DNA of 64,000 nt, from contig NZ_CP127294.1 of the NCBI RefSeq assembly GCF_030285625.1, forward strand, positions 4,040,001 to 4,104,000, read 5' to 3'. Within the stretch, counting starts at the first letter, position 1, and every line of letters starts with the position of its first letter. A program made the position numbers and the translations under genes. Below the pieces are notes generated by a model, which worked only from the letters and a program-made list of their open reading frames with translations, was not told the origin of the DNA and searched no databases. Of the stretch, positions 4,269 to 27,493 are shown in pieces. The DNA comes from Amycolatopsis sp. 2-15 (GTDB lineage: Bacteria; Actinomycetota; Actinomycetes; Mycobacteriales; Pseudonocardiaceae).

Positions 4269-4272
4269 GCGC

Positions 4273-7160: not shown

Positions 7161-7325
7161 AGGGATGTCTTGTAACCCGGTGTGGGCTTGGCCTGTCCGG
7201 TAGTTGATCATGGTGTGGTGCAGGTGATCTCGGCGTCGCGGTCGGAGTGGATTGCCCCGTTCACGGGGTTGGAACCAGGTCAGTTCCGCAAACTTGTGCG
7301 GGTCGTGGCGAAGCGAGGTGGCGGG
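7161..7325 (+). mobile_element. Left-end fragment of the IS5-type element
   Basis: From CTA-AGGGATGTCT at 7158-7170 the sequence follows the left end of the IS copies at 19416 and 21884 (terminal repeat, then the first 50 or so transposase codons including SASRSEWIAPFTGLEPGQFRKLVRVVAKRGG). It then loses similarity near 7325. The right two thirds and the right terminal repeat are absent. The fragment starts 11 bp after the IS3 right end, so IS3 insertion or a deletion next to it may have shaped the junction. Confidence 0.8.
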
Positions 7326-8772: not shown

Positions 8773-11700
8773 GTGTCCGGTGGGGTCGTTCGTGGTCGAA
8801 GACTGTCCGGTTTCCGGATGGTGACGGTTCTGCTCAGCGTGCTCGCACTGCTGGGGGCGACCACCTCGGTGGTCGGTGCGGCCCCGAAGCCGGCTTTGCC
8901 CGCTCAATCCGCTGCGGCGCCGAAACCCGCCGATTTCGGTCCTGACGCGGCGAAATCCGCCGATGTCGCGCTTGACGGCTACGGCGATGCGCAGGGCTAT
9001 CACGTCGAGCTGGGCCGGGAGGTTGCCGGGTTCGCGTGGCAGGAGGTCGCGCTGATCCACCCGGCCGGGTTCGACGACGACTCGTGGACCGGCTACCAGT
9101 GTGTGTCCGGCGACGGGAAGTACGCCGCGGTCGCGATCCTGCCGGGCTCGGCGGTGAACACCCAGGCCGCGCGCGACCACGGCGCCTTCGCCTACTCGAT
9201 CGACCTGGGCACCGGCACTGTGCGCGCGCTGGCCGGTGGCGTCGGCCTCAAGTACTACTCGCCCGGCTGCGGCATCGGAGACGCCGCGACGTTCACCGTC
9301 GCCCTCGACGGGCAGACCCGGCTGCTCACCGCGAATCTGTCCACCGGCAAGATCGACGCGGACGTGACAGTCCCGGGGCAGATCACCTCATCCGTCCCGA
9401 CGGGCTCCGGCGTCGTCGGCGTCGCCGGCAATCGGCTGCTCTCCCTGTCCGTCAAGGGAAAACTCGCCGTGCTGGCCACGTTGCCCGGTGACGTCTACGA
9501 CGTGCGCCCAGCCGCCGATGGCGGTGTCAGCTTCCTGCACACCAAGCCGGGCACCCGGACCGCGACCGCCGCGCACGAGCACGCCGACACGGTCACCACA
9601 CTCGGCTCCGGCGACCTGACCCGGGTACAGCTCTTCCAAGGCCGCGCCGGACACGCTGTACTGTCCGGCGCCACCCCCACCGCGCCCAGCGGGCTGGGGG
9701 CGGCAGGCGTCCGCGATGTCGCCGACCGTGGTCTTGCACACGGCGCCGAATCGTCCTCTTTGGATGGTGACGCGCTCCTCGGGCCGGACGCCGACGGCCG
9801 CAAATCCGCACCCGTACTGCTGGCGACGAAGACCGGTAAGTTGCTCGCCCCCGCGGTACCCGCCGCCACCCGCGCTGCCACTACCGCCGTGCCCACCTAC
9901 TCCGCTGCGCCGAAGCCTGCCCAAGCCCCGCACCAGAACCGGCTGAGCCCGAAGGGAGACGCGGCCCCGACGGCCACCACAACGCCGAACGCCACCCAGG
10001 TACAGACGCCGAAGTGCGCCGTGCCGCCACTGAACGCGAACCGGCAGGTGATGCAGCCGAACCCGGCGCAGGTCAACTGGGCGGTGCAGATGGCTGAGCA
10101 GGATCTGCTGACCGGCAGTGCCTATACCCGACCGGCCGGGTTCGACAACCTGGGCCTGGTCGCTTACGCGCCGAACAGCGACTTCCCGCTGATCCCGCTG
10201 TCGCACCCTTCGGGTGGCACGAACACCGTGCCGCGCTCGATCTTCGAGGGCATCATGGCTCAGGAGTCGAACTGGTCGCAGGCTTCCTGGCACGCCCCGG
10301 CCGGTACGGCGGGTGACCCGTTGATCTCCAGCTACTACGGCGCAGGTGGCGACATCGTCTCGATCAACTATGCCGCTTCCGACTGCGGCTACGGCATCAG
10401 CCAGGTCACCGACGGCATGCACATCGGCGACCACTCGCTGTCCGAACACGGCCAGTGGAAGGTCGCCGTCGACTACCAGGAGAACATCGCCGCCGGCCTG
10501 CAGATCCTGGAGACGACCTGGAACCAGCTCTACGCCGCCGGTATCACCGCGAACAACGGCGACCCGCGCTACCTGGAGAACTGGTACTTCGCCGCCTGGG
10601 CCTACAACTCGGGCATCCAACCGAACGCGGCCAACGGCAACACCACTGGCTGCACCCCCGGCCCTTCCTGCACCAGCCCGCACGGAACGTGGGGCCTGGG
10701 CTGGACCAACAACCCGGCCAACCTGGACTACCCCCCGAACCGCGACCCGTACCTGCAGGACACCTACGCGGACGCGGCGCACCCGGCGAGCTGGCCGTAC
10801 CAGGAGCGCGTGCTGGGCTGGACCGCGAGCCCGCTGATCCGCTACGGCAGCCAGGCGTACGCGAAGCCGACCTACAACGGCGGGCAGCGCTGGGTGCAGC
10901 CCGCTCCGTTCACCGCGATGTGCTCGCTCGTGGGCAACCAGTGCGACCCCAACGCCACCAACACGTCCATCCCGGGCGCCAGCCACTGCATGCTCGATGA
11001 CTTCGAGTGCTGGTGGCACAACCCGGTGACGTGGATCCCCAGCTGTGCCACAACGTGTGCGACCAGTCCCTACGCGGTCTCGGGCGGGTCGGAACCGGCG
11101 AACCCGACCCAGAACCCGCCTACCTGCAGCCAGGACACATCGAAGGTGCCCGGCGGTTCGATCATCGTCGACGACGAACCGAACCGGCTGAACCTGCAGG
11201 GCTGCGGCGGCGCGAACTGGTCCAGCAACGGCACGTTCACCTACACCTACGGCACCAACTCCGCCGGTGACCCGATTGGCGCGATCGACACTCACCAGCT
11301 CGGCACCGGCCTCGGCGGCCGGGTCCTGTTCACCCACACCGAGGACGGCTCGAATCCTTCACTAATCAACACCGGCGTGTGGACGCCGAACCTGCCCTCA
11401 CTGCAGTACTACAAGGTCAAACTGCACCTGCCCGGCCTCGGCGCCGAAGCCACGAACGTCGTCTACAACATCAACCCCGGCGGGGGCGTCGCACCGTGGA
11501 AGATCCGGGTCAACCAGGCCTGGAACTCCGAGCAATGGGTCACTATCGGCACCTTCGCCATGCAGAACGGCGGCAACGTCACCCTCACCAACGACGGCAG
11601 CTCCCAGGACAACGGCGGCTACGGCTATTCGGACTTCGACGTCGCCTTCGACGCCGTCGCGTTCGTCCCCGAAGGCGGTACCCCCGGCCAGCCGATCGGC

Positions 11701-14700
11701 GGGCCGCCCGGCATCCAGGACGAACCCCGCGGCAGCAATCCGGCTTTCATCGCCTGTGGTTGCGCACGCCGCACTGCGGGCGATCCCGTCGACACCGCGA
11801 CGGGCTATTTCGGCGACGAATTCAATGATTTGACCACGCCTGGCCGCGGGATGCCGCTCACGTTCACCCGAAGCTACGCTGAGAGCATCGCCGATCCCAA
11901 CGGTCCCAACAAAACTCTCGCGGCCGACGGGCCATTCGGCTGGGGCTGGACGTACTCGTACAATCTGACCGCTGTCGACGACGCGGCTACCGGCCAGGTG
12001 ACGGTGCGACAGGAGGACGGTTCGGCAGTCGTTTTCAATGCCACCGGAAGCACCTTCACTCCGGTCGCACCGAGGTACGACGCGACACTGACGACGTCCG
12101 GATCGTCTTACCAATACACCCGGCGAGGCAAGGAAATCTTCACGTTCGACGCCGCGAGCGGACGCCTGACGGCGGAGACTGACCTGGCGGGAAGCAAAGC
12201 GTCCCCGCCCTACCAGACGACTTTGGCCTACGACGGCGCCGGTCACTTGTCGACGATCACCGACCCCGCAAACCGGAAATACACGCTCAGCTGGACGGGA
12301 AACCACATCATCGGCGTTTCCGACACTGCCGGCCGCCAGGTGACCTACGGATACGACACGAACGGCAATCTCACCGACGTCTACGGAATCGGGACCACCC
12401 GGACTCCCGCCCTCCAGGACGACGACCACACGCAGTACACCTACGACGGCAACCACCTGATGACATCAATGCGGTCCCCAGCTAACTTCGGCGGCCCTGC
12501 CACGGCGAAAACGTCGATGGTGTACGACAGCGCTGAACGGGTGCAAACGCAGACGGATGCCAACGGACACACGACGACGTTCACCTACGGTCCAGACGGC
12601 GGCCTCGCCGCCGGACAGACTGAGGTGACCGATCCCGCAGGCCACAAGAAACTGGACACCTACCAGAACGGGCTGCTGACCGCAGAGACCTTGGGGTACG
12701 GCACGGCCGACGCCGGCACCACGTCCTATACCTACGATCCGGTCACCCTGGGCGTGTCCGCACAGACCGACCCCGACGGCGGCCTGCAGACATACACCTA
12801 CGACGACCACGGCAACAAGACCTCCGAGTCCAACTCGCTCGGCTTTACGACCGATTATGTCTACGACGACGCCGCGAACCTTCTCGAGACCATCGACCCC
12901 GACGGCGTGGCGACGGTCAACCAGTACGACCAGGCGGGGCACGTCCCGGCGGGGACCGGCGGAGGGTTGGACTTAACCTCGAGAACGGTCACCCGCGCGA
13001 ACAACGTAGTGGAATCCGCGACCGGCAACTTCGGCCCGGCTCCGACCCGTACCGCCACGTTCTTCTATGACGACCCCGCCCACCCAGCCGATCTGACAAG
13101 AGCGGTCGATCCCAACGGCAAGACCACCAGCGTCGCATTCGACGCCTACGGCGATCAGATATCGGTGACCGACGCCGCCGGGGACAAGACCCAGTCAGGA
13201 TTCGACACCGCGACCGGCTGGCTTGTCGCGAGGGTAGACGGGAACGGGACGGCGGCGGGAGTCGTTCCCAGCTGCATCCCGCCGGCCAAGGGCTGCACCA
13301 CCTACGGGCACGACGCCTACGGAAACGTCACCCTCACCACGGATCCGCTTGGCCACGTCGCTTCCGCGCACTATGATGCCGATAGCCACCAGACGTCGGC
13401 CACTGACGCCAACCACCGGACGACGAGCACGACGTTCGATGCGGCGGGGCAACCGGTGAAGGTGACCCAGCCCGACAATTCCACACAGATCACCGACTAC
13501 AACCCGGATGGAACTGTGGCCGACACGATCGACGGCCTCGCTGAGAAGACGGTGTACGGCTACGACGGACAAGACCGAAAAACTTCTCGCACAGATCCTG
13601 CCGGCCGGAAATCGGCCCTGCATATCGACCCGGCGGGGCGCGTGCTGACCGCAACCGACCCGGGCGGCCGGGTGACCACCAACGGCTACGATCCGGCGGG
13701 GCAGCTCACCTCCATGACCTACTCGGACGGCGAGACGCCCATGGCCGCGTACAGCTACGACCCCGCGGGTCACCGGCTGTCGATGACAGACGGGACCGGC
13801 ACATCAACCTGGACTTACGACGCCTTCGGCGACGTCGTCTCGCAGACCCAGGGTTCGGGCGCGACCGTGGAGTACGGCTATGACGACAACGGCAACCAGA
13901 TCAGCATCACCTACCCGGACCACACCAACCCGGTGACCCGGACCTTCGACGACGCCGAGCGGCTCAAGACCGTGACTGACTGGTCCGGGAACAAGACCAC
14001 CTTCGGTTACGACGGCGACAGTGCCGTCAATACGACCCAGTATCCGAACGGCGCGACCATCACCAACGGCTACGACGACAGCGATCACCTGACCAGCACG
14101 TCCGCCGGCACCGGGAACATAACCGCGCTGTCCGCGAACTACGGCCGCGACCCGATCGGCCAGCTGTCGTCCAGGACGATCGGATCAGCCACCCAGACCT
14201 TCGGATACAACGCCAGGGAGCAGCTCAGCTCCGACGGCACGAACACCTACACCGTCGATGCGGCGGGCAATCCGGTACAGATCGCCGCCGCCACTCAGGC
14301 ATTCGACTCTGCGGGGCAGATCTGCTGGACGCTTCCGAGCGGCTCGGTCACCACCCCGAGTTGCGGCACCGTGCCGGCCGGTGCCACGGGCTACACTTTC
14401 AGCTCGTCCGGCGAGCGCAAGACGGGTGGTTCAGCCACCTACAGCTACGACCAAGCAAGTCGGCTGACCGCGTTCAGCCGAGGAGGTGTGTCAGCGACGT
14501 ACGGGTACAACGGGGACGGTATGCGGATGTCGAAGACATCCGGCGGGACGACAGCCACCTTCGTCTGGGATGCCGGCTCAACCCCGAACGTCCTCAACGA
14601 CTCCGTCAACGACTACCTGTACGGACCAGATGGCCTCCCCATCGAGCAGGTCGGACCTGACGGTTCGTTCTGGTACGTCCACGATCAGGTCGGCTCGACC

Positions 14701-15477
14701 ATCGCACTGCTCAATGGCGCAGGAGCCGTGGCGGGCAGCTACACCTACACGCCGTACGGGGCCGCAACTGCGTCGGGCTCCGCCGACACACCACTCCGTT
14801 TCACCGGACAGTACACGGACGCGGAATCCGGACTGGTCTATCTCCGCGCCCGGTTCTACGATCCGGCAACCGCCCTGTTCCTCACGGTAGATCCACAGGT
14901 CGACAGCACGCACAGCCCGTACGGCTACGTGATGGGCAATCCGGTCAACCTGACCGACTTGTCCGGGATGTGCTGGTCTGGGTTCGGTTGGGCCTGTGCC
15001 GCAGCGAACTTCGTCTGGGAGCACAAGACCGCCTTCGAGGTGGGACTCGCGGTCGCGTCGCTGGCCATTCCCGTGGTTGGCGAATTCGTAGGCGGCACCT
15101 TGCTCGCCGACACAGTGATCGGTGTAGGCGTCAGCGAAGGCGCGGCGATGCTCGGCAACGGCCTGTTCTACGCGGACACAGCGCTGTCCATCGCGGACGC
15201 CAGATACACGTGCCAGACAGGAAGCGCGGCCGGTTGCGCGGTCGGCGTGGCGAGCGTTGCGACGGGTGCCGCGGGGTATGCCTTCGGCGCCGGTGCGAGA
15301 GCGGCCGGAAAGCTGGCTGGCAGCGCCGGCTCGGCGATTGGCCGATGGGGTTACCGCCAGGCGTCACGCGGCCTCAACATCGGTGCCTGGCTGCAGAACA
15401 TCGCGTCGCTAGGCTATTCGATCGCGGGCGGCTGCAACCTTGACACCTCCCAGGACCCGAACCTGCTGAACCGTTAG
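8773..15477 (+). CDS. Secreted RHS-repeat protein with lysozyme-like domain and unknown C-terminal domain
   Basis: The protein has 2234 residues from GTG 8773 with a good ribosome-binding site. Order of parts: signal peptide (about 1-36); a beta-rich region (about 60-260); an Ala/Pro linker; a transglycosylase-like domain (about 470-650) with SIFEGIMAQESNWSQASWHA and CGYGISQVTDGM; a golvesin-like beta domain (about 790-980); DUF6531 starting DPVDTATGYFGDEF (about 1004); many YD/RHS repeats (about 1060-1990); the RHS core (about 2007-2065) ending NPVNLTDLSG. The last 165 residues match nothing I know and are rich in Gly/Ala hydrophobic stretches. This is a polymorphic-toxin layout: the RHS shell encloses a released C-terminal effector, here perhaps membrane-active. 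No nuclease motif is seen. Confidence 0.9.
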   Translation: MSGGVVRGRRLSGFRMVTVLLSVLALLGATTSVVGAAPKPALPAQSAAAPKPADFGPDAAKSADVALDGYGDAQGYHVELGREVAGFAWQEVALIHPAGFDDDSWTGYQCVSGDGKYAAVAILPGSAVNTQAARDHGAFAYSIDLGTGTVRALAGGVGLKYYSPGCGIGDAATFTVALDGQTRLLTANLSTGKIDADVTVPGQITSSVPTGSGVVGVAGNRLLSLSVKGKLAVLATLPGDVYDVRPAADGGVSFLHTKPGTRTATAAHEHADTVTTLGSGDLTRVQLFQGRAGHAVLSGATPTAPSGLGAAGVRDVADRGLAHGAESSSLDGDALLGPDADGRKSAPVLLATKTGKLLAPAVPAATRAATTAVPTYSAAPKPAQAPHQNRLSPKGDAAPTATTTPNATQVQTPKCAVPPLNANRQVMQPNPAQVNWAVQMAEQDLLTGSAYTRPAGFDNLGLVAYAPNSDFPLIPLSHPSGGTNTVPRSIFEGIMAQESNWSQASWHAPAGTAGDPLISSYYGAGGDIVSINYAASDCGYGISQVTDGMHIGDHSLSEHGQWKVAVDYQENIAAGLQILETTWNQLYAAGITANNGDPRYLENWYFAAWAYNSGIQPNAANGNTTGCTPGPSCTSPHGTWGLGWTNNPANLDYPPNRDPYLQDTYADAAHPASWPYQERVLGWTASPLIRYGSQAYAKPTYNGGQRWVQPAPFTAMCSLVGNQCDPNATNTSIPGASHCMLDDFECWWHNPVTWIPSCATTCATSPYAVSGGSEPANPTQNPPTCSQDTSKVPGGSIIVDDEPNRLNLQGCGGANWSSNGTFTYTYGTNSAGDPIGAIDTHQLGTGLGGRVLFTHTEDGSNPSLINTGVWTPNLPSLQYYKVKLHLPGLGAEATNVVYNINPGGGVAPWKIRVNQAWNSEQWVTIGTFAMQNGGNVTLTNDGSSQDNGGYGYSDFDVAFDAVAFVPEGGTPGQPIGGPPGIQDEPRGSNPAFIACGCARRTAGDPVDTATGYFGDEFNDLTTPGRGMPLTFTRSYAESIADPNGPNKTLAADGPFGWGWTYSYNLTAVDDAATGQVTVRQEDGSAVVFNATGSTFTPVAPRYDATLTTSGSSYQYTRRGKEIFTFDAASGRLTAETDLAGSKASPPYQTTLAYDGAGHLSTITDPANRKYTLSWTGNHIIGVSDTAGRQVTYGYDTNGNLTDVYGIGTTRTPALQDDDHTQYTYDGNHLMTSMRSPANFGGPATAKTSMVYDSAERVQTQTDANGHTTTFTYGPDGGLAAGQTEVTDPAGHKKLDTYQNGLLTAETLGYGTADAGTTSYTYDPVTLGVSAQTDPDGGLQTYTYDDHGNKTSESNSLGFTTDYVYDDAANLLETIDPDGVATVNQYDQAGHVPAGTGGGLDLTSRTVTRANNVVESATGNFGPAPTRTATFFYDDPAHPADLTRAVDPNGKTTSVAFDAYGDQISVTDAAGDKTQSGFDTATGWLVARVDGNGTAAGVVPSCIPPAKGCTTYGHDAYGNVTLTTDPLGHVASAHYDADSHQTSATDANHRTTSTTFDAAGQPVKVTQPDNSTQITDYNPDGTVADTIDGLAEKTVYGYDGQDRKTSRTDPAGRKSALHIDPAGRVLTATDPGGRVTTNGYDPAGQLTSMTYSDGETPMAAYSYDPAGHRLSMTDGTGTSTWTYDAFGDVVSQTQGSGATVEYGYDDNGNQISITYPDHTNPVTRTFDDAERLKTVTDWSGNKTTFGYDGDSAVNTTQYPNGATITNGYDDSDHLTSTSAGTGNITALSANYGRDPIGQLSSRTIGSATQTFGYNAREQLSSDGTNTYTVDAAGNPVQIAAATQAFDSAGQICWTLPSGSVTTPSCGTVPAGATGYTFSSSGERKTGGSATYSYDQASRLTAFSRGGVSATYGYNGDGMRMSKTSGGTTATFVWDAGSTPNVLNDSVNDYLYGPDGLPIEQVGPDGSFWYVHDQVGSTIALLNGAGAVAGSYTYTPYGAATASGSADTPLRFTGQYTDAESGLVYLRARFYDPATALFLTVDPQVDSTHSPYGYVMGNPVNLTDLSGMCWSGFGWACAAANFVWEHKTAFEVGLAVASLAIPVVGEFVGGTLLADTVIGVGVSEGAAMLGNGLFYADTALSIADARYTCQTGSAAGCAVGVASVATGAAGYAFGAGARAAGKLAGSAGSAIGRWGYRQASRGLNIGAWLQNIASLGYSIAGGCNLDTSQDPNLLNR

Positions 15478-16784: not shown

Positions 16785-17390
16785 ATGGTTCAGGGGTTTC
16801 GGCAGACGGGATCGCAGGTGGTTGATGAGGTGGCCGATGACGGCGAGGTGATCGCTGCGTCGGCTGATCGCCCGGACCTGTTCGCCGTGATCTTTGATCG
16901 GCATGCGGCATCGGTCTACGGGTACCTAGCGAGTCGGCTGGGCCAGCAGATTGCCGACGATCTGCTGGCCGACACGTTCCTGGCGGCGTTCAGTGCGCGT
17001 CAACGTTATGACTCGGCCAGGGCCGGCGTACGTCCCTGGCTATTCGGCATCGCGACGAACATGATCGCGCGGCATCGGCGCGACGAGGTGCGGCGCCACC
17101 GGCTCACTTCTGCCGCGGCGCGCGACGACGACGGCGGGCATGACGATCGAGTCACGGCAGAGCTGGCTGCACAGGCGATGCGGCCGCTGCTGAGCGCGGC
17201 GTTGGCTGGCTTGTCGCAGGGCGATCGGGACGTTCTGTTGTTGATCGCATGGGAGCAGCTGAGCTACGAGGAGGTTGCCGCAGTGCTGGCGATTCCGTTA
17301 GGGACTGTCCGGTCCCGGCTCAACCGGGCACGTCGCAAGGTCCGTGCGATCTTGGCTGCGAATTCAGTAGTGACTGTTGATGAGGAGTGA
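16785..17390 (+). CDS. ECF-type RNA polymerase sigma factor
   Basis: The protein has 201 residues. Sigma region 2 lies at about 30-100 (LFAVIFDRHAASVYGYL, ADDLLADTFLAAF, VRPWLFGIATNMIARHRR), a variable linker follows, and region 4 at about 135-190 has SYEEVAAVLAIPLGTVRSRLNRARRKVR. It would direct RNA polymerase to a small stress or envelope regulon. A membrane protein gene follows 4 nt after the stop, a typical sigma/partner operon. No matching promoter consensus was found in the window. Confidence 0.9.
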   Translation: MVQGFRQTGSQVVDEVADDGEVIAASADRPDLFAVIFDRHAASVYGYLASRLGQQIADDLLADTFLAAFSARQRYDSARAGVRPWLFGIATNMIARHRRDEVRRHRLTSAAARDDDGGHDDRVTAELAAQAMRPLLSAALAGLSQGDRDVLLLIAWEQLSYEEVAAVLAIPLGTVRSRLNRARRKVRAILAANSVVTVDEE

Positions 17391-17394
17391 GATC

Positions 17395-18351
17395 ATGGAC
17401 GAGGTTGAAATGATCAAGGCCGGTCGGCCACCGCGACAACTGCCCGACGACGCCACGTTGACCGCTGCTCGTGCTCAGCTGATCACGGTCGCAACGCAGG
17501 AGTCGCGTGGCCGCAGGAATCCCAAGCCATCCCGATACTGGGTACTGACCGGCACCCTGGCGACGGCAGCTGCGGCTGCAGTCGTGGTCGGTGTGGTTTT
17601 TGCGCCCAGCCCCGCCGGGCGCGAGCCTGTCCCGTCGGCCGCCTCGCCGGCTGCGGTCTCGCCAGGCGTGGTCCGAGCTGTCGATGTGGTGAAGATCCTC
17701 AACACTGCCGCACAACGAGCGCTGGCACTACCGAACGTGCCGCCCCGTCCCGATCAGTACGTCTACACCCAATACACCGACGGACGGCAGGTGTGGCGAT
17801 CGGTCGATGGCGGGCACACGGGGTTAGTGCAGCGCAGCGACGGATCTCGGGACGTGACTCCCGGGTGCAGTGACGGCCAGGCCAGTGCCGTGGACAAGGC
17901 CGGCCAAGAGGTTCCGGGCACGACCACCCCGTGCTCCGCGGAAGGCGCAGCGTATAAGCCAGGATTACCGACGGACCCCGCCGCGTTGCTGACCTACCTC
18001 AACGGCAACGTACCCTACAGCGCGGATCGGCCCGGCGACGTGAACCGGGTGGCGAAGGGAACGATGGAGCTGTTCGACACCACCTACCTCACTCCGGCCA
18101 CCCGCGCCGCGCTCTTCAAGACCATTGCCACGTTGCCCGGCCTCCACCTCGACACGACCGCGTCAGACTCGCTGGGACGCCAAGGGATCGGCATCTCATG
18201 GACTTACGGAAGCACGAATCAGCTCGTCTTCGACCCCAGCACCTACACGTTCCTCGGCGTCACGACTAGCGCCGACAACGGGACCGAGGGTGCGTCATCG
18301 GTAGCCAGGGTCGCGATCGTCGACCAAGCGGGTCAGACGCCCTCCAACTAA
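17395..18351 (+). CDS. CU044_5270-family membrane protein, probable sigma-factor partner
   Basis: The protein has 318 residues from ATG 17395; AGGAG at 17383-17387 supports this start over an in-frame TTG at 17377 that would overlap the sigma gene. A cytoplasmic N-terminus of about 50 residues precedes one membrane segment (about 46-65). An extracytoplasmic domain follows with PDQYVYTQYTDGRQVWRSVDG, typical of the actinobacterial CU044_5270 family that accompanies ECF sigma genes. An anti-sigma role is inferred from position and topology; no zinc-binding HxxxCxxC motif is present. Confidence 0.78.
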   Translation: MDEVEMIKAGRPPRQLPDDATLTAARAQLITVATQESRGRRNPKPSRYWVLTGTLATAAAAAVVVGVVFAPSPAGREPVPSAASPAAVSPGVVRAVDVVKILNTAAQRALALPNVPPRPDQYVYTQYTDGRQVWRSVDGGHTGLVQRSDGSRDVTPGCSDGQASAVDKAGQEVPGTTTPCSAEGAAYKPGLPTDPAALLTYLNGNVPYSADRPGDVNRVAKGTMELFDTTYLTPATRAALFKTIATLPGLHLDTTASDSLGRQGIGISWTYGSTNQLVFDPSTYTFLGVTTSADNGTEGASSVARVAIVDQAGQTPSN

Positions 18352-18605
18352 CGGACATCTCGACACCCGGCGGTAGAAATAGCTTTAAGTGTCGACCGTG
18401 GGGCATTCTGTGCCCAACGCTGACAATCAGCCGATTCGTCACCAGCGCCCTAGCCGCGATACCACCCGAACGGCGCTCGTGCGGAAGCCTTGAGGAACAT
18501 ACGATTTTCAGGGTTCTTTCCCGCCGGCCACCGAATCGAGCATGCGCGGGCGGCCCAAAGAAGACGCACAGCGCCGCTATGTGGCGCTTATGGGGGGCTG
18601 AAGTG

Positions 18606-19430
18606 ATGATTCAAGCACAAAGACGCCACTTTGTATTGTGCATCGTGGCAGTCTGCGCGGTGGCGTGCGTCGTCGTTGCTGGGTACTCAGGCATAGGGGG
18701 AAGCGTCGCGCAAGCTTCTCATACCAATACAGGTTCTTCGGACCTGATTACGCCAGCAGACGAGGAGCTCGAAAACAACGCGGAGCAGCTTCTCGTCGAA
18801 AAATGTATGATTTACGCTGGTTTCCAAACCTGGCCTCGGGTCAAGTTGGCGGCAACTCCGCAGAATCTGTACCCATATGTGATCGATGATGTTCAGTGGG
18901 CGCGCCGGCATGGCTTCGGTAGTGACATTCAACAGTCCAACGCGCAGACTGCTGCGGCCGACCCAAACGTCCGCTATTTCTCGGGACTGTCCGACATTGA
19001 CAGGAAGCGTGCCACAACTGCCCTTAACGGGCCACTTTTGCTGTCATCTGATGCAAGCCGCGTAACAGTCGCGGTGCCGTCTGGCGGATCGATGTCACGG
19101 AGTACGCAAGGTTGTACTTCTGAATCCGAGCAGGAGCTCTACGGCAACTTGGCTGATTGGTTCCGTGTGGACGCCACTGGCGCTAGTCTGAATATGGTTC
19201 GCTACCGGATGGTGATCAACGATGCAACCTACGTCGCCACAGTCAAACGCTGGGCTTCCTGTATGGACAGGACTGGCTATCACCACGTCAGTCCGAGCGA
19301 GGCCATGGCGGCCTTCATTGGGCCTGCCGTTACTCCCACCCGACAAGTCGAGCAGCGGGCGCTCGAAATATCAACCGCGACGGCCGAGGCCTCCTGCTCC
19401 GAACAAACGAGCCTAAGGGATGTCTCGTAA
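18606..19430 (+). pseudogene. Secreted protein of unknown function, interrupted by the IS5-type element
   Basis: ATG 18606 (GGGGGGCTGAAGTG upstream) opens a protein with an N-terminal hydrophobic segment (about 10-35, signal peptide or anchor). The outside domain carries KCMIYAGFQTWP and KRWASCMDRTGYHHVSPSEA, Cys-Met-Gly patterns like those of a widespread actinobacterial secreted family of unknown role. The IS left end enters at 19416 and supplies the last codons and stop (19428-19430). If the IS and one TA duplication are removed, the frame continues for 45 codons to a stop at 20437-20439. The pre-insertion protein was then 314 residues, followed 25 nt later by the next secreted-protein gene. 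Confidence 0.75.
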
Positions 19431-20302
19431 CCCGGTGTGGGTCGGTTGTGGGTGTTGGTTGATCATGGTGTGGTGCAGGTGATCTCGGCGTCGCGGTCGG
19501 AGTGGATTGTTCCGTTCACGGGGTTGGAGCCGGGTCAGTTCCGGAAGTTGGTGCGGGTCGTGGCGAAGCGTGGTGGTGACGACATTGCTGATGGTCGTCC
19601 TGGTCGTCAGTGGCGTCTTGATCTGGCTGATCGTGTGTTGCTGGTGGCGACGTACTGGCGGACGAACCTGACGATGCGCCAGATCGGACCATTGTTCGGG
19701 GTGTCGCATTCCGCGGCGCACCGGGGGAAGCGACACGATTGGCCCGCTGCTGGCGCTGGCTCCGGTCCGCAAGCGGCGGATCGACTCGGTGGCGATCGTT
19801 GATGGCACCTTGGTGCCGACGCGGGATCACCGGCTGGCGGCGCCGTCGAAGAACTACCGGTACTCGGCGAACGTGCAGGTCGCGATCGACGTGGACACCC
19901 GGTTGGTGATCGCCACCGGGGACGCGCATCCGGGTAACCGCAATGACTGCACCGTCTACCACGACTCCGGTATCGAGCAGGAGTTGGCGGGGCGCCCGGT
20001 GATGGCCGACGGCGGCTACCAAGGCAACCCGGCCGTGATCATGCCCTACCGCAAACCCCATGACGGCAGCGATCTCCCAGACTGGAAAGAAGACCTCAAC
20101 GCCGGCCACCGCAAAATCCGTGCCCGCGTCGAACACGCCCTGGCCCGGATGAAGTGCTGGAAAATCCTGCGCGACTACCGCCGCGCCGCCAGCACCCTCA
20201 ACGACACAGTCTCCGGCATCGCCCACCTCCACAACATCCACCTCGCAGACTGATCCACAACACCAGCCCCACCAACCACACGGTCAGTTACGAGACATCC
20301 CT
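19416..20302 (+). mobile_element. IS5-family element (IS427-like), copy A
   Basis: The element is 887 bp with perfect terminal inverted repeats of at least 16 bp (AGGGATGTCTCGTAAC). It sits in a CTAG target with TA duplicated on both sides (19414-19415 and 20303-20304), which suits the IS427 subgroup of IS5. The transposase gene inside is frameshifted. It interrupts the secreted-protein gene starting at 18606. A second copy lies inverted about 0.7 kb to the right, and a fragment lies at 7161. Confidence 0.88.
19437..20253 (+). pseudogene. IS5-type DDE transposase, copy A, frameshifted
   Basis: The N-terminal half (from GTG 19437) carries SASRSEWIVPFTGLEPGQFRKL and LADRVLLVATYWRTNLTMRQIGPLFGVSHSAAHR. 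The frame is lost near 19722, where GTGATCGAC in copy B reads GGGGAAGCGAC, one base longer. The C-terminal half resumes in another frame with VAIVDGTLVPTRD (first Asp), ADGGYQGNPAVI (second Asp) and RARVEHALARMK (Glu). Both halves are otherwise complete. IS427-type elements often use two ORFs, but the altered bases here look like a lesion rather than a slippage site. Confidence 0.75.
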
Positions 20303-20304
20303 TA

Positions 20305-20439
20305 GGGACCACTGCTCGAGATCTCGATGCGAAGTATCGACAGATGCTAAATGTGCGGTATCGAAGCGTGCTTGCCCAGAAAGATCGAATGGAGGTGGCC
20401 GCACTTGGTCGGTCTCATGAAATCGTCAGGCGCGGCTAA
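20305..20439 (+). pseudogene. Cut-off 3' end of the interrupted secreted-protein gene
   Basis: Directly after the right TA duplication, codons starting GGG ACC ACT GCT run open for 45 codons to TAA 20437-20439, in the phase that would join the 18606 gene after precise excision of the IS. The peptide contains DAKYRQMLNVRYRSVLAQ and KDRMEVAALGRSHEIV, a charged helix with coiled-coil character. An open, sensible frame exactly in register is strong evidence that this is the displaced C-terminus. The next gene starts 25 nt later. Confidence 0.7.
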
Positions 20440-20464
20440 ATGAAGGCGGAGGAAGGCACTGATC

Positions 20465-20965
20465 ATGAGACGTCATATCGGATCCATGGCACTCTTCGCT
20501 TCACTCATCACGATATTTGTTTCAATGCCACCGGCTGCATTTGCAGCATCGCCGATAGTGGGTGCACCATCGCCCCTTGTTCGTCAGGGACAGTCTAGTC
20601 AGGCGGTCGCCACCCCCGATTCGGCAAACGGGTATTTCTATGCTGAGGCTGATCAAGGTTATCTTTGTTCATGGAGTGGAAATGGCGCGGACTGGAGTTA
20701 CTCCCAAAATGGAGCCAATTGTCTAAATAACGACATCTGGGTAGAGAACAACGGGTATTTTGAAACCTACGATTGCGTGGAAATCTTCTGGGGAACCAGC
20801 TATGGAGGTGCCGGCGCTTTCCTTGGTCAGGGGATAGCGTGGGACCTCACCACAGGTCGGTACACGTTCGATTATGAAGGGGACAATCCGGAGCCTGGCT
20901 ACCTGGAGAGCATGGAGAACAACGCTGCATCTCATGCGTGGACGCCGGCCAATCAATTTTGCTGA
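20465..20965 (+). CDS. Small secreted protein of unknown function
   Basis: The protein has 166 residues; ATG 20465 follows GGCGGAGGAAGG. A signal peptide (about 1-28) ends in AAFA-A. The mature protein is rich in Gly, Asn, Trp and Tyr, with four Cys and a pattern YLCSWSGNGADWSYSQNGANC and YGGAGAFLGQGIAWDL. This is loosely like crystallin-type or I36-type secreted inhibitors, but not enough to name a family. GC content is clearly below the chromosome average, suggesting transfer. It was probably the second gene of an operon with the interrupted 18606 gene, and now lies between two inverted IS copies, probably without its original promoter. Confidence 0.75.
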   Translation: MRRHIGSMALFASLITIFVSMPPAAFAASPIVGAPSPLVRQGQSSQAVATPDSANGYFYAEADQGYLCSWSGNGADWSYSQNGANCLNNDIWVENNGYFETYDCVEIFWGTSYGGAGAFLGQGIAWDLTTGRYTFDYEGDNPEPGYLESMENNAASHAWTPANQFC

Positions 20966-20999: not shown

Positions 21000-21884
21000 A
21001 GGGATGTCTCGTAACTGGTGTTGTGGTTGGTGGGGTTGGTGTTGTGGATCAGGCGGTGAGGAGGATGTTGTGCAGGTGCGCGATTCCGGAGACGGTGTCG
21101 TTCAGGGTGCTGGCGGCGCGGCGGTAGTCGCGCAGGATTTTCCAGCACTTCATCCGGGCCAGCGCGTGCTCGACGCGGGCACGGATCTTGCGGTGGCCGG
21201 CATTGAGATCTTCCTGCCAATCTGGTAGATCGCGGCCGTCGCGGGGTTTGCGGTAGGGCATGATCACGGCCGGGTTGCCTTGGTAGCCGCCGTCGGCCAT
21301 GACCGGGCGCCCCGCCAACTCCTGCTCGATGCCGCAGGCGCGGTAGACGGTGCAGTCATTGCGGTTACCCGGATGCGCGTCCCCGGTGGCGATCACCAAC
21401 CGGGTGTCCGCGTCGATCGCGACCTGCACGTTCGCCGAGTACCGGTAGTTCTTCGACGGCGCCGCCAGCCGGTGATCCCGCGTCGGCACCAGCGTGCCGT
21501 CCACGATCGCAACCGAGTCGATCCGCCGCTTGCGGACCGGGCCAGCGCCAGCAGCGGCCCGATCGTGTCGATCACCCGGTGCGCCGCGGAATGCTACACC
21601 CCGAACAGAGGTCCGATCTGGCGCATCGTCAGGTTCGTCCGCCAATAGGTCGCCACCAGCAACACACGATCGGCCAAATCCAGGCGCCACTGACGACCAG
21701 GCCGGCCATCAGCGATCTCATCACCACCACGCTTCGCCACGACGCTCACCAACTTGCGGAACTGACCTGGCTCCAACCCCGTGAACGGGGCAATCCACTC
21801 CGACCGCGACGCCGAAATCACCTGCACCACACGATGATCAACCAACACCCCCAACCGACCCTCACCGGGTTACGAGACATCTCT
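21000..21884 (-). mobile_element. IS5-family element (IS427-like), copy B, inverted
   Basis: The element is 885 bp and closely similar to copy A but in opposite orientation. The left outer end is CTA|AGGGATGTCTCGTAAC (20997-21015); the right end carries one mismatch (CTCT for CCCT). It is flanked by TA on both sides inside a CTAG target. Length differs from copy A by 2 bp, which matches a +1 lesion in A and a -1 lesion in B relative to an 886-bp parent. With copy A it brackets the 20465 gene as a composite-transposon-like unit. Confidence 0.86.
21049..21854 (-). pseudogene. IS5-type DDE transposase, copy B, nonsense and frameshift
   Basis: The minus-strand gene starts near 21854 (VLVDHRVVQVISASRSEW). 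It meets TAG at about 21594, where copy A has TCG (Ser of GVSHSAAHR). Further on, GGCTCCGGTCC of copy A reads GGCCCGGTCC, a 1-nt loss, after which the C-terminal part (RKRRIDSVAIVDGTLVPTRD to HNILLTA) is open in the frame ending at 21049. The DDE residues are present. The lesions differ from those of copy A, so a mosaic of the two could give an intact gene. Confidence 0.78.
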
Positions 21885-22051: not shown

Positions 22052-22927
22052 GTGGTTGCTCATCATCTTGCCAGTCCTGGTTCTTCGAGTCCGGTTTCGG
22101 TGCTGCAGCGAAGTCTTCGGCAGTCGTCGGTTGTCACGAGGTTTGATCTCGCGCTTCGAAACTGGTCTCGGGAAGATCCCGATCTCTCGGGCATCGAGAG
22201 TGCGCAGTGCTTATCCGCGGTGTTGGCCACCCGGGAGTACGCGCGCCACGACGAGGTGTTGTTCGCGTTGTTGCGCCGCGCGGCGACGTTGGGGAGCGAC
22301 GGTGTGACGGCGGCCGAGATTGTGCTGAACGCGATGTTGCCGGCGGTCCCGGGGATCACCGGCCGGGTGATCCGGGCGAGCCGTACGGCGGCGGGGGCGT
22401 TCGGGCCGCGTCGCGGAGTGACCGGGGGTGGAGTCTCCGCGTCGGAGGACAACGCGGACATCCAGGCGACGGTGATCGGTCACCTGTGGGAGCAAGTGCG
22501 CTGCTATCCGTTGCGTCGGTGCCACCATGTGGCGGCCAATCTGGTGCGGGAGACGCAGCGGGCGGCGCTGCGTGCGCTCGGTGTCGATTATGCGCAGGCG
22601 GTGGCCGACGTGGTGAGCATCGACGTGGACGACTTCCACGGCGGGGTGACCCAGTCAACGGCCGAGGTGGATGCTTCGGAGGAGTTGCTCGAGTTGCTGG
22701 CGTGGGCGGTGGAGCAGAAGCGTCTGGATGAACAGGCGAGCGCGATCCTGGTCGCGCGCTACTTCGGCGATCGGGTCGGTCGAGATGGGGTGGCGACGGA
22801 CCGGCAGGTGGGGGAGTTGTTCGGGGTGAGTCAGCCGACGGTGACGCGGCGGCGGAACCGGGCGGTCGAGCAGCTGGCCGAGGCGGCGCGGGAGTTCCCC
22901 GGCTGTGGGATCCGGTGGGCGAGCTGA
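22052..22927 (+). CDS. Sigma-factor-like helix-turn-helix regulator of the conjugative element
   Basis: The protein has 291 residues; GTG 22052 with AAGGAG at 22041-22046. The C-terminal 90 residues resemble sigma region 4: LEQ-like helices ending in TDRQVGELFGVSQPTVTRRRNRAVEQLAEAAREF. The middle part (HLWEQVRCYPLRRCHHVAANLVRETQRAAL) is like the helical domain of sigma-like proteins that lead the transfer region of actinobacterial ICEs. It is the first gene of the run that leads into tcpC. A role in switching on transfer genes is inferred from this position. Confidence 0.65.
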   Translation: MVAHHLASPGSSSPVSVLQRSLRQSSVVTRFDLALRNWSREDPDLSGIESAQCLSAVLATREYARHDEVLFALLRRAATLGSDGVTAAEIVLNAMLPAVPGITGRVIRASRTAAGAFGPRRGVTGGGVSASEDNADIQATVIGHLWEQVRCYPLRRCHHVAANLVRETQRAALRALGVDYAQAVADVVSIDVDDFHGGVTQSTAEVDASEELLELLAWAVEQKRLDEQASAILVARYFGDRVGRDGVATDRQVGELFGVSQPTVTRRRNRAVEQLAEAAREFPGCGIRWAS

Positions 22928-22994
22928 ATCAAACCCAACCGGCTGTCCCGTGTCTGGGGCTGTCCGCTCGCCGTTTCTGCAGGTTGGAGCACCT

Positions 22995-23252
22995 GTGACT
23001 GGATTTCACGCTGCCCTTGACCCGGGTGAGGCAACGATCGCGCGGGCCCGGATCCGTGCCCGCCTGCTGGCCAACCGGCTGAGTTCGACGCTGGTCGACC
23101 GCGCCCTGTACGTCGAGCTGCAGCAGTTCCTCGACGACGTCGGGTTCCGGGCCTGCGATGCGCTGGAGGAACTCAGCGAACGCTCCGACCCCGCCTTGCG
23201 CCACCGTCTGCACTTGGTCCTGGGCATCGGCTCCGCCGAGGACTGCTCGTGA
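22995..23252 (+). CDS. Small helical protein of the conjugative element, unknown function
   Basis: The protein has 85 residues from GTG 22995, with TTGGAG 5 nt upstream. It is predicted almost entirely helical (ATIARARIRARLLANRLSSTL, then ALYVELQQFLDDVGF and CDALEELSERS). Its stop overlaps the GTG of the TcpC-like gene by 4 nt, so it is translated with the transfer operon. No family recognised. Confidence 0.6.
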   Translation: MTGFHAALDPGEATIARARIRARLLANRLSSTLVDRALYVELQQFLDDVGFRACDALEELSERSDPALRHRLHLVLGIGSAEDCS

Positions 23253-24217
23253 GCCGGCGCGAGGGCCGGGCCGGGTTGCTGAAGAGGCTGTTGCCGGACG
23301 CTCCGGTCGAGCCGGCGCTCCCTTCCGCGACGCATCGCGGCGGGCGGATTCTGGCGTGGTGCGTCGTGGTGGCGAGCCCGCTAGTGACGCTCGGCGGGCT
23401 GATTGTGCTCCGTCCGACGCCACCGGTCTCGTCGCCGAGCGCTCACGTCGAGACCGAGCAGCGAGATCCGCGTGGTTGGACCGAGATGTACGTGCGCTCG
23501 TGGCTCGCAGCCAGCCGAGACGACCCGGCAGGGCTGGCCGCGTTCTATCCGGACGGGATGGCGTCGCAGCGCGACGTCGGCACGCAGATCCCGGTGGACA
23601 CCGCGGTGGTCTCGGTGGTCTCGCCGGCGCCCGGGACCTGGTCGGTTGTGGTCGCGGTGAACCTGCTGACCGAGCAGCCCGACGGCAGCCATCCGTCGAA
23701 GATCACGTGTGAGCAGGTCAGCCTTGTCGGGGGCCGCGATGCGTACGTCGCGACCGAGTTGCCGTCGCCGGTGGCCTGCCCTGGCACGCTGGCGCCGGTC
23801 GAGCTCGCCTATGACCAGTCCGCGGATCTGACCGGGCCGATCGGGCAGTCGGTCGGCGGGTTCCTGACCGCCTACCTGGTGGGGCAAGGGCAGCTCGACC
23901 GGTACACCAGCCCCGGGGCAAGCCTTGCCCCGGTCGTGCCAGCGCCCTACATGTCGGTGCAGCTGCAGCAGCTGCGCACGCACGAGGATTTCGAGCCGGG
24001 GCAGGCCGCACGGCCGCTCGACGGCACCCAGACTCACGTCCTGACCCGCGCGCTCGGCTATGACGCCACTGGTCAGAACACCGCGGTCGACTACGCGCTG
24101 ACCCTCACCGCTCGTGCCGGGCGTTGGGAAGTCAGCAGCGTCGATGCGAGCCCGCTGCTGGTCACTCCGTCCGTCGCTTCGCCGGTCCCCAGCAGTGTGA
24201 CCCGAGGAGGCTCGTGA
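23249..24217 (+). CDS. tcpC: TcpC-like conjugal transfer protein
   Basis: The protein has 322 residues. A short basic cytoplasmic part precedes one membrane segment (about 34-55) and an extracytoplasmic region made of two NTF2-like halves (about 75-190 and 195-305), ending with the WEVSSVDASPLL strand. This is the layout of TcpC/VirB8-like scaffold proteins that place the transfer channel in Gram-positive conjugation. The GTG start overlaps the preceding stop; the stop overlaps the next ATG (TGATG). Confidence 0.82.
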   Translation: MSRREGRAGLLKRLLPDAPVEPALPSATHRGGRILAWCVVVASPLVTLGGLIVLRPTPPVSSPSAHVETEQRDPRGWTEMYVRSWLAASRDDPAGLAAFYPDGMASQRDVGTQIPVDTAVVSVVSPAPGTWSVVVAVNLLTEQPDGSHPSKITCEQVSLVGGRDAYVATELPSPVACPGTLAPVELAYDQSADLTGPIGQSVGGFLTAYLVGQGQLDRYTSPGASLAPVVPAPYMSVQLQQLRTHEDFEPGQAARPLDGTQTHVLTRALGYDATGQNTAVDYALTLTARAGRWEVSSVDASPLLVTPSVASPVPSSVTRGGS

Positions 24218-24459
24218 TGACGATCGTGCTCGCCGCGGACGTGAAGTCGTGGATCGACACCAACTTGTCGTGGGGTGATCAGACGGTGCGCCGGCTGATA
24301 TTGCTGGCGGCGGTCGTGGGTGGGATCGGGTTGTTGATCGGCACGCGGGGGAACTTCACGCGGTCGATCAAGTACGGCGTGATCGCCGCGATCTTCCTCG
24401 GGATTCTGCTGAATCTCGATGCGGTGTCGGGGATGTTCGGCGCCTGGTTCACGCACTGA
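24217..24459 (+). CDS. Small two-segment membrane protein (TcpD-like)
   Basis: The protein has 80 residues from ATG 24217, overlapping the previous stop by one base. A short extracytoplasmic start (WIDTNLSWGDQTVRR) is followed by two membrane segments (about 24-42 and 52-72). Position between the tcpC- and tcpE-like genes and this size fit the TcpD type of channel subunit. The assignment rests on synteny and topology, because such short proteins carry little sequence signal. Confidence 0.7.
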   Translation: MTIVLAADVKSWIDTNLSWGDQTVRRLILLAAVVGGIGLLIGTRGNFTRSIKYGVIAAIFLGILLNLDAVSGMFGAWFTH

Positions 24460-24920
24460 TGGCCGGGCAGAAGTCGGGCGATGGTGTCCTGATCGGACGG
24501 TCCTACACGCGGTCTCGCCGGTTTCCGCGGATGTTCGGGCGGATGCCGGGCCGCGACGGCGGCTATCTGCCGGGCGGCCCGTACACGTTGACGCAGGGCG
24601 TGCTCTTCCTCGGGCTGCTGGTGATCGTCTGGAAGGTGTCGGCGTTCGACTGGCTGGGGCCGGCGCGGTGGGGGCTGCCGCTCGGGGCGATTTTCGTGCG
24701 CCGCGCGCGTATCGAGTCGCGGACGCCGTTGGGCTGGCTCGCCGGTCTGGTGATGTGCCTGCTTGCCCCGGCCACGGGCTTGCTCGGGAATCGGCCCTAC
24801 CGTGCACCACGTCCACAGTGGAGCAAGCAGCAGATCCATCTGCACCTTGTCCAGGATCGTGCCAACGCGGCACCTTTGGAGCGCATCCTCGCGGGTGCCG
24901 GCAAGCGGGGGAGTGCCTGA
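24459..24920 (+). CDS. tcpE: TcpE family conjugal transfer membrane protein
   Basis: The protein has 153 residues from ATG 24459 (TGATG overlap). The N-terminal region has the RSYTRSRRFPRMFGRMPG patch seen in TcpE/PrgI-like proteins, then two membrane segments (about 48-70 and 85-112), and a basic C-terminal tail after GLLGNRPYRAPRPQW. It is expected in the inner-membrane part of the mating channel next to the ATPase encoded directly downstream (again a TGATG overlap). Confidence 0.8.
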   Translation: MAGQKSGDGVLIGRSYTRSRRFPRMFGRMPGRDGGYLPGGPYTLTQGVLFLGLLVIVWKVSAFDWLGPARWGLPLGAIFVRRARIESRTPLGWLAGLVMCLLAPATGLLGNRPYRAPRPQWSKQQIHLHLVQDRANAAPLERILAGAGKRGSA

Positions 24921-27493
24921 TGGACCGACAGATCCTGGACATCGCCGGCAACGTGCTGTTCTGCGCGGACGGTTCGACGTGGGGCGTGTGGCGGGTGTTC
25001 CCGCGGGAGAGTGCGCGCTCGACCGGGAAGCAGTTGCGCCAGCTCTACGAGCGCACGGTGACGTTGATGAAGTCGCTGCGTGGGGAGGTGATGATCGCGT
25101 CGCTGTGTGAGCAGGTGCAGCCGCACGCGATCGTGCGCCGGTGTCTCGACGGTGTCGACCTCGATGCCAATCCGCATTGGGCCGAGACCGTGCACAATGC
25201 CTGGGATCAGCTCGAGACCTTGGACGTGCTGGGTCGCAGTTACTGGATTGCCAAGCCGTTGGATGGTGAGGGTTGGCGCGAGAGTACGCAGGGGTTGTTG
25301 CGTGCGACCGGGGCGGCTCTCGCGGCCAGTCTCGGTCTGTCGGCGCGCCCTGCGACGGCGAGCGCGATCGCCGTGGCGCGCGAGCGTGTCCGGGTCGCGG
25401 GCCAGGACTTGGACGGGTCGATCCCGATCCGGCCGGCGAGCGAGGCGGAGCTGCTGTGGTGGTTGTGTCGGGCGCCGGTCCGTGGGGTTGACGAGCCTCA
25501 GCTCGAGACCAGCGAGACCGTCCACAACACCGGGATCTCGGTCTCGCGCAGCGGCCGGGCCAGTCTCGCCACGCTCCGCGGCAGCGTTCTCGACGAAGGC
25601 GGACGAACTGATCGCGCCGGCGGTCTGCTGGGTCCGCCGGCGACGCTGAACCGGCGCTTCCTCAAATGCGTGACCCCCCGTGACGACGTGCTGGTCACCA
25701 GCTACCAGGCCTACCTTGTGTTGGCGGAGATGCCGCGCGCGTTCACCTTTCCCGGTCACGAGATTCTGGCGCGTCTGGCTGACATCGGGTTCGGCGTGGA
25801 CTACGCGCTGCGGATCACCGCGACGACCAACGAAGAAGCGCGCGCGAGCAACCGGCGCCGGACCCGTGACCTGATGAGCCAGGACGAGGAGCACGGCGGG
25901 GACGCGGCCGGTGTGCCGGCGGATGTGCATTCGGCGCAGGAGGAGATCCAGCACAAGAACGCCCGGCTCGGCGCCAGCTCCACTGAACTGGACCTCGAGG
26001 TCGGGGTGGTCGCGTGTGTGTGGGGCGAAACCGCCGACGAGTGCGACGCCCGCGCCAAGGTCCTGCGACGGGCGTTCCTGGGCGGTGAGTACAAGTGGGA
26101 GCGTCCGCTCGGCGGGCAGCGCCACCTGTACCAGGCGCTGCTGCCTGGGTATCGGACGCCGTTGGTGTTGCGGGAGTGCAGCCAGAACCTGCTGGCCACC
26201 GACGCGGCGATGTTGCTGCCGGTGTCCGCGACCGAGTTCGGAGATCCGACCGGTGCGTTGTTCGGGATGGTGCTCGACGGCGGCGCGATCGCGCCCTACC
26301 TGCTCGACCCGACCTACGGCCCGACGCACGACTCGTCCGGCGGTCTGGCGGTGATTGGCGAGCTCGGCGCCGGCAAGTCCGTCGTGCTAAAGAACGTCGC
26401 CGCGGTCGTTCGGCTGATGCTCGACGGCCGGGTGATTGCCGTCGATCGCACCCGCAGCCGGGAATGGGTCCCCGTCGCCGGGGCGCTGCCAGGCAACAGC
26501 CAGGTCGTGGACGTCGTCGACCCGACCCTGGACAGTGAGCGCGCGAACTCCGCGGAGCTGCGGTACTCGTGCGATCCGCTGCGGGTGTTCGGCGGCAACG
26601 CGAAGACCAGCACCGGTATTGCCGAGATCTTCTTCGCCGCGTGGCTCGACCTTGAGTCCAACTCCGCCGAACGCGACGCGCTGGGCCGCGGGCTGGACGC
26701 CGTGAGCGGAACCGCCGGCGCCTCAAGCAACGCCCTCGTCGACATGCTCGCCCGGCAAGGCAAGCACGATCCCGCCGCCCGGGCTCTCGCCACGCGGCTG
26801 CAGCGGTTGCGGCGGGACCCGATCACCCGCCCGATCTTCGACCCGGACTTGCCGCCGGTGGACCTGTTCGACGCGGACATGGTCGTGTTCTGCACTCACG
26901 AGATCCCGCTGCCGAGCGCCTTGGAGATGAGCAGCGAGCGCATGGCCGCGCGCGTGCCGCCCCGCAAGCTGTTCGGGCGAGCCTTCCACCTGCTGATCGC
27001 GGCGATCGCGAAGGAGATCTGCTTCGGCACCGACCGGTGGGGCGAGTTCATCTGCGACGAGGCCTACAACGTCACCGGCACCCCCGAGGGCCAGCAGATC
27101 GCGCTCGAGTTCGTGCGCGATGGCCGCAAGCACGGTGCCGACGCCGCATTCGGTTCCCACGCGGCGAAGGACCTCGGCGACGACGTCCTGCGTGGACTGA
27201 TCGCCGTCAGGTTCCTCGGCCGCCACCGCGACGACGCCCTCGCGCGGCAAGGCCTCGCCTGGCTAGGCATCGACCCATCCGACAGCCACTACCACGAGAT
27301 CGTCACCCGCGAGCTCTCCCCGCTGAACCCGGCCGGGGGAGAGGCGGAGCGCCGCGCCCGCGCGGGCGAATTCGTGGTCCGCGACCATGCGGGCCGCGTC
27401 GGACGGGTCAAAGTGATGACCCAGCCCTACCGGACCTTGCCCAAATCCGTGCTCACCACACCGAGAATCGACCGCGGCGGCACCAGGCGGTGA
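24920..27493 (+). CDS. VirB4/TcpF-type conjugation ATPase
   Basis: The protein has 857 residues from ATG 24920, which overlaps the tcpE stop. The N-terminal half is the VirB4-like membrane-interaction region. The C-terminal half is an ATPase with Walker A GELGAGKSVV (about 480), conserved VDRTRSREW after it, and Walker B FICDEAYN (about 710), then GSHAAKDLGDD. It would power substrate or pilus movement through the channel. It appears intact. The relaxase and coupling ATPase (TcpA/FtsK-like) that normally accompany it are not in the window. Confidence 0.88.
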   Translation: MDRQILDIAGNVLFCADGSTWGVWRVFPRESARSTGKQLRQLYERTVTLMKSLRGEVMIASLCEQVQPHAIVRRCLDGVDLDANPHWAETVHNAWDQLETLDVLGRSYWIAKPLDGEGWRESTQGLLRATGAALAASLGLSARPATASAIAVARERVRVAGQDLDGSIPIRPASEAELLWWLCRAPVRGVDEPQLETSETVHNTGISVSRSGRASLATLRGSVLDEGGRTDRAGGLLGPPATLNRRFLKCVTPRDDVLVTSYQAYLVLAEMPRAFTFPGHEILARLADIGFGVDYALRITATTNEEARASNRRRTRDLMSQDEEHGGDAAGVPADVHSAQEEIQHKNARLGASSTELDLEVGVVACVWGETADECDARAKVLRRAFLGGEYKWERPLGGQRHLYQALLPGYRTPLVLRECSQNLLATDAAMLLPVSATEFGDPTGALFGMVLDGGAIAPYLLDPTYGPTHDSSGGLAVIGELGAGKSVVLKNVAAVVRLMLDGRVIAVDRTRSREWVPVAGALPGNSQVVDVVDPTLDSERANSAELRYSCDPLRVFGGNAKTSTGIAEIFFAAWLDLESNSAERDALGRGLDAVSGTAGASSNALVDMLARQGKHDPAARALATRLQRLRRDPITRPIFDPDLPPVDLFDADMVVFCTHEIPLPSALEMSSERMAARVPPRKLFGRAFHLLIAAIAKEICFGTDRWGEFICDEAYNVTGTPEGQQIALEFVRDGRKHGADAAFGSHAAKDLGDDVLRGLIAVRFLGRHRDDALARQGLAWLGIDPSDSHYHEIVTRELSPLNPAGGEAERRARAGEFVVRDHAGRVGRVKVMTQPYRTLPKSVLTTPRIDRGGTRR

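Follow-up and report, generated by a model that had tools for sequence, protein, structure and literature searches.

What did an insertion sequence (IS) interrupt in Amycolatopsis sp. 2-15, and does the interrupted gene belong with the gene that follows it? The locus lies within a 64,000-nucleotide (nt) stretch of contig NZ_CP127294.1 (positions 4,040,001 to 4,104,000; hereafter the window, whose numbering we use unless genome positions are given). Here, a gene for an anchored secreted protein (gene 1) is split in two, and its second piece is followed closely by a gene for a small secreted protein (gene 2). We found that gene 1 and gene 2 are a conserved pair, widespread in Actinomycetota, and we argue below that gene 1 may be a surface partner of the gene-2 protein.

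The insertion and the severed end of gene 1

The inserted element occupies positions 19416–20302 (plus strand) and has identical 16-bp inverted ends, AGGGATGTCTCGTAAC. The TA target is duplicated around it (left copy 19414–19415, right copy 20303–20304), with CTA before the element and TAG after it. Two overlapping transposase frames, 19437–19802 and 19789–20253, match the Pfam families HTH_Tnp_4 (49.7 bits, cut-off 27) and DDE_Tnp_4 (62 bits, cut-off 24.8), respectively. The NCBIfam model IS5_4 matches the same two frames with 15.9 and 56.9 bits, short of its full-length cut-off of 140. Both domains, the short inverted ends, and the TA duplication are common to IS5-family insertion sequences, among which this element, presumably of the IS427-like subgroup, is in no way unusual. 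The initial annotation, which had described an IS5-type insertion splitting a secreted-protein gene, is thus confirmed in its coordinates, ends, target duplication, and transposase domains. A search of the same genome gave 12 matches to the element, that copy included, and a sister copy at genome position 4517817 is 99% identical. A 161-base IS remnant, 87% identical to one IS end, lies at 7161–7321 (genome 4047161–4047321).

The IS and one TA together span 889 nt, so the phase of gene 1 resumes at 20305, in the codon after 19413–19415. The first part of gene 1 (18606–19415, plus strand) encodes 270 residues before the insertion point, residue 270 corresponding to residue 258 of the relative L047. 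The start may be the ATG at 18603 rather than 18606, as the database protein P0001 begins one residue earlier. The second part (20305–20439, plus strand) encodes 44 residues of a helical C-terminus and the stop codon (20437–20439). We compared the two pieces with relatives separately, using no joined sequence. The profile has 13 rows, including the window's first piece, which contributes nothing to the C-terminal columns. The first piece matches model positions 5–251 (E 1.4e-92; genome 4058624–4059424), and the second gives its own match in the genome at model positions 245–291 (E 2.6e-5; genome 4060293–4060433). Since the two pieces occupy consecutive profile positions, the match is not due to chance, and the rejoined frame first proposed, from G20305 to the stop, stands both in phase and by profile. 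The insertion is probably recent, since no stop interrupts the second piece and the IS shares 99% identity with its sister copy.

Relatives of gene 1 do not end where the insertion begins. We scanned named genomes with the gene-1 alignment and examined the best 80 of 88 relatives, some of which share one genome; the scan pattern was built from gene 1 only. These include loci from A. keratiniphila (L099), A. kentuckyensis (L077), A. vastitatis (L094), and A. anabasis (L125). All 54 other aligned gene-1 rows extend 43–69 residues beyond the insertion point (L080 and L118 are not among these rows). The match reaches model position 288 or further in 78 of the 80 named loci; of the two shorter ones, L080 is cut by a contig end and L118 runs only to position 244. 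Alignments for structure prediction drew on 53 of the 80 loci for each gene, with L080 and L118 excluded from that of gene 1. The predicted fold of gene 1 is mostly helical with a pair of short strands. In the predicted model of L047 (predicted local distance difference test [pLDDT] score 88.8), the insertion point falls between helices 236–256 and 258–276, which deprives the window's gene 1 of its last two main helices. Four cysteines are invariant in the larger gene-1 alignment, and their counterparts in the window (residues 67, 170, 219, and 264) are all in the first piece.

Gene 1 matches no family in Pfam or NCBIfam, apart from one chance-level NCBIfam match (E 0.44), and nothing in the PDB by sequence or by fold comparison. 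The 120 listed of its 235 database relatives are named “hypothetical protein,” “secreted protein,” “lipoprotein,” or “uncharacterized protein.” In 38 of 80 relatives, a lipobox-like motif ahead of the first conserved cysteine is picked up by a simple pattern, which misses some cases. The 25 other relatives displayed start with a hydrophobic segment, and in some of them a possible lipobox escaped the pattern. Gene 1 of the window itself has a hydrophobic start, with AVAC at residues 18–21 as a possible lipobox. Judging from these sequence features, the gene-1 protein is likely membrane-anchored, some relatives using a lipid and others an N-terminal hydrophobic segment.

A conserved neighbor with a predicted crystallin fold

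Gene 2 (20465–20965, plus strand; 166 residues) starts 25 nt after the stop of gene 1, and the good ribosome-binding site noted at the outset, GGAGGAAGG, is present at 20448–20456 (plus strand), 8 nt before the ATG at 20465. The expectation that the second gene should sit beside the first in uninterrupted loci held: a gene-2 profile match lies behind gene 1 in 77 of the 80 named actinobacterial loci, with tandem gene-2 copies in L048, L049, and L086. Of the three misses, L080 stops at its contig edge, and L052 and L109 showed no gene 2 even when the search was unfiltered. The gene-2 match of L118 overlaps the end of the gene-1 frame. Among same-genus genomes, 7 of 59 contain a strong gene-1 match, and the window's gene 2, used alone as the query, was found beside gene 1 in five of this genus (G007, G008, G034, G044, and G050).

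In an order-wide sample of 397 genomes (E 0.001), gene 1 was found in 66 and gene 2 in 75; adjacency was read from the top 66 gene-1 rows and 42 gene-2 rows. Gene 2 is adjacent at 18 of the 22 strongest gene-1 places (window included), to which a refined gene-2 profile adds three (L156–L158), and at only 3 of 43 weaker places at that sensitivity. Examined with better profiles, these weaker loci yielded the mixture of arrangements classified in the next section. A phylum-wide sample of 396 genomes had gene 1 in 12 at E 1e-10, counting the genome of the window. In a plasmid collection, a gene of the I36 group (peptidase inhibitor family I36, discussed below) adjoins gene 1 in all four gene-1 records. 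Furthermore, the divergence of genes 1 and 2 is correlated, with an r of 0.65 against at most 0.20 in 1000 shuffles. No description of the pair was found in the literature searched; with gene 1 nameless, the search approached it through I36, SMPI, and crystallins. The initial suggestion of an undescribed extracellular system fits this result and the absence of any family match for gene 1.

The gene-2 protein is predicted to have a beta-gamma-crystallin fold. Mean pLDDT of the model exceeds 90 in every ten-residue block of 61–160, and crystallins fill the Foldseek and VIA rows among the matches listed. The fold is shared, by models and weak profile matches, with beta-gamma-crystallins such as spherulin 3a, clostrillin, and the lens gamma-crystallins, although identity to gene 2 is only about 7–17% in the VIA rows. 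The window's gene 2 has no Pfam match at E 1 and hence does not reach the cut-off of PF03995 (Inhibitor_I36). This family nevertheless matches 25 of the 54 members of the gene-2 alignment at E 0.01, and relatives L028, L029, L030, L035, L157, L160, L161, L165, and L175 reach its curated cut-off. The window's gene 2 retains the residues that are most strongly conserved in the gene-2 family. It appears to encode a Sec-type secreted, disulfide-braced protein related to I36 peptidase inhibitors. The initial statement that neither protein has a namable family holds for gene 1 in Pfam, NCBIfam, and the PDB, but fails for gene 2, given its I36-matching relatives and predicted fold.

Could gene 2 then encode a protease inhibitor? 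The I36 type protein, SMPI (PDB 1bhu), is likewise small and secreted, and a title among the references of PMC4229192 describes it as crystallin-type in structure. The gene-2 protein might inhibit an extracellular protease as SMPI does, with gene 1 docking the inhibitor at the surface to guard the envelope or to restrain the cell's own proteases. The I36 matches and the SMPI structure speak for this role, as does the appearance of SMPI chain 1bhu in the gene-2 profile search, though weakly (E 0.17). That alignment covers only chain residues 3–48, the first half, so that the SMPI reactive site lies beyond the comparison, and the window protein, unlike the I36 family proper, is without a PF03995 match. 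We regard this role as rather doubtful. In the literature searched, no I36 description mentioning an anchored partner turned up.

Variant loci and genomic setting

We classified the company of gene 1 in loci picked from match lists rather than sampled at random. The classification took 64 loci, of which 5 had no gene 1 at the threshold (four orphan gene-2 places and one weak case), leaving 59. I36 genes were called at E 0.01, and some of these matches are weak (L197, L206, and one of two in L187). An I36 gene without a transporter occurs in 28 loci, a transporter without I36 in 16, and both in 4. Gene 1 was the search handle and is thus the constant part by design; the finding is its two kinds of company. 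In more distant loci, the order is reversed, with I36 first and gene 1 second. The adaptor, ATP-binding cassette (ABC) ATPase, and permease occur in that order in 20 of the 59 loci, and the series I36, gene 1, adaptor, ABC ATPase, and MacB/FtsX permease is found in L035, L164, L165, and L166. In L035, the adaptor carries PG_binding_1, followed by ABC_tran and then MacB_PCD with FtsX. L166 has three I36 profile matches; as their frames overlap, there may be fewer than three genes.

Other arrangements were also seen. In L169 (1298–4371), gene 1 lies beside adaptor-like and ABC ATPase-like genes, as judged by eye, and because these are divergent from it, L169 was counted as gene 1 alone. L033 (6904–9524) has two I36-like genes upstream of gene 1 and a downstream secreted gene with a below-cut-off bulb-lectin match. 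In L207 and L208 (about 3640–4660, minus strand), an I36-like domain stands at the C-terminal end of a longer frame, and no gene 1 lies within the stretch examined.

The four-locus series resembles the MacAB-like YknWXYZ system in that it also combines an accessory membrane-associated protein with an adaptor, an ATPase, and a MacB/FtsX permease. It differs in the peptidoglycan-binding domain on the L035 adaptor and in the accessory protein, which is of the Yip1 family in YknW, according to an excerpt of PMC4887032, and an anchored extracytoplasmic helical protein in gene 1. Unlike YknWXYZ, the window pair has no adjoining transporter gene. The same excerpt describes YknWXYZ as an efflux pump for SDP, a peptide toxin of Bacillus, and gives macrolides and an enterotoxin as MacAB substrates (PMC4887032).

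This likeness raises a second possibility, a bacteriocin with its immunity protein. The gene-2 protein would kill or inhibit competitors, and gene 1, aided by the ABC transporter in loci that have one, would protect the producer by binding or expelling it. A small secreted disulfide protein does adjoin an anchored protein here, and the MacB-type transporter of related loci recalls a pump that removes SDP. Over all locus pairs, gene 2 is less conserved than gene 1 (mean identity 36% versus 41%, with gene 1 higher in 80% of pairs). Yet in 9 of the 24 pairs whose gene-1 identity exceeds 60%, it is gene 2 that is better conserved, which is no steady sign of an arms race; given this mixed pattern, an arms race is neither shown nor excluded. 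Several loci also have two I36 genes per gene 1. Neither gene has a PADLOC match, which says little, as that library covers anti-phage systems only. We consider a bacteriocin-immunity pair unlikely.

The genome containing the window is a single contig of 10.05 Mb. The guanine-plus-cytosine (GC) content is 56.9% for gene 1 and 52.5% for gene 2, against 69.2% for the window, and the values of both genes are below those of all 77 paired relatives. In 70 of the 77 relatives, gene 2 falls short of the average of its locus, by a mean of 3 points, and the low GC is thus only partly peculiar to the window genome. Base composition nonetheless suggests that the pair was probably acquired from elsewhere. 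One could then suppose that the two genes merely travel together through common regulation or mobility, each acting alone. The patchy distribution within the genus and the low GC, which suggest horizontal transfer, agree with this. It is quite improbable, in our view, as the two genes remain neighbors in 77 of 80 loci, in either order and amid differing flanking genes, and as the low GC is in part a family trait.

A second IS copy of the same type, identified by own-genome search and its flanks (92% identical, TA-flanked), lies directly behind gene 2 (21000–21884, minus strand). Conjugation-type genes follow it (22052–29553), preceded by a sigma-like gene. These include a TcpC-like gene (23249–24217), a TcpF/VirB4-like ATPase gene (24419–27493), and a frame with a below-cut-off CD3337/EF1877-type match (27037–29553). 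From this gene content, the pair may border an integrative element. Upstream are a 2234-residue RHS-repeat protein with DUF6531, Golvesin_C, and a below-cut-off lytic-transglycosylase match (8773–15477), and an extracytoplasmic function (ECF) sigma factor followed by a CU044_5270-family protein (16785–18351). Apart from one ECF match in L125, the latter two genes do not recur next to the pair in the 80 named loci.

A possible surface partner for the gene-2 protein

Adjacency in both orders, correlated divergence, and matching predicted locations speak for a physical contact between the two proteins at the membrane surface. We tentatively favor, at a little short of an even chance, a two-gene extracytoplasmic module in which gene 1 serves as a surface partner, capturing or presenting the gene-2 protein. 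Gene 1 would bind the gene-2 protein at the cell surface and hold, present, or release it. Where relatives also have the adaptor and the MacB-type ABC transporter, the gene-1 partner would pass the protein to the pump or work with it. The transporter in these loci hints at an ATP-driven complex, for which YknWXYZ and MacAB are the closest characterized parallels. The outside target of the gene-2 protein could be a protease, a wall polymer, or a competitor. In the window, where the last two main helices of gene 1 are removed, gene 2 is intact but its surface partner has probably lost function.

Several observations weigh against a surface partnership. Gene 1 stands alone in 10 of the 59 classified loci, and another consists of two gene-1 copies and an ABC ATPase. 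Three I36-type proteins above the cut-off are encoded elsewhere in the same genome, whereas own-genome searches with gene 1 gave no strong second copy. Of 21 gene-2 matches with E 1e-10 or lower in the order-wide sample, 4 are separate from gene 1. The I36 model also gives matches in 8 of 14 control genomes, in 2 of them above the cut-off, so I36 membership alone is not specific. Six loci (L048, L049, L086, L033, L213, and L214) have two I36 genes per gene 1, and no natural gene-1/gene-2 fusion was seen among the loci examined. Finally, co-inherited neighbors show correlated trees even without contact.

More speculatively, the surface-partner reading may extend to an unrecognized envelope system of Actinobacteria, in which I36-group crystallin-fold proteins act via a dedicated membrane-anchored helical receptor of new fold, coupled in larger loci to a peptidoglycan-spanning MacB-type transporter. 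This is conceivable, though we would not yet expect it. The database group named after one inhibitor does have a conserved, nameless neighbor across a wide range of Actinomycetota. The pair offers a testable handle on the role of crystallin-like secreted proteins, and the IS insertion described here is a natural break in one half of it. If such a system exists, many stand-alone “peptidase inhibitor family I36” annotations would be half of a receptor-ligand or effector-immunity machine.
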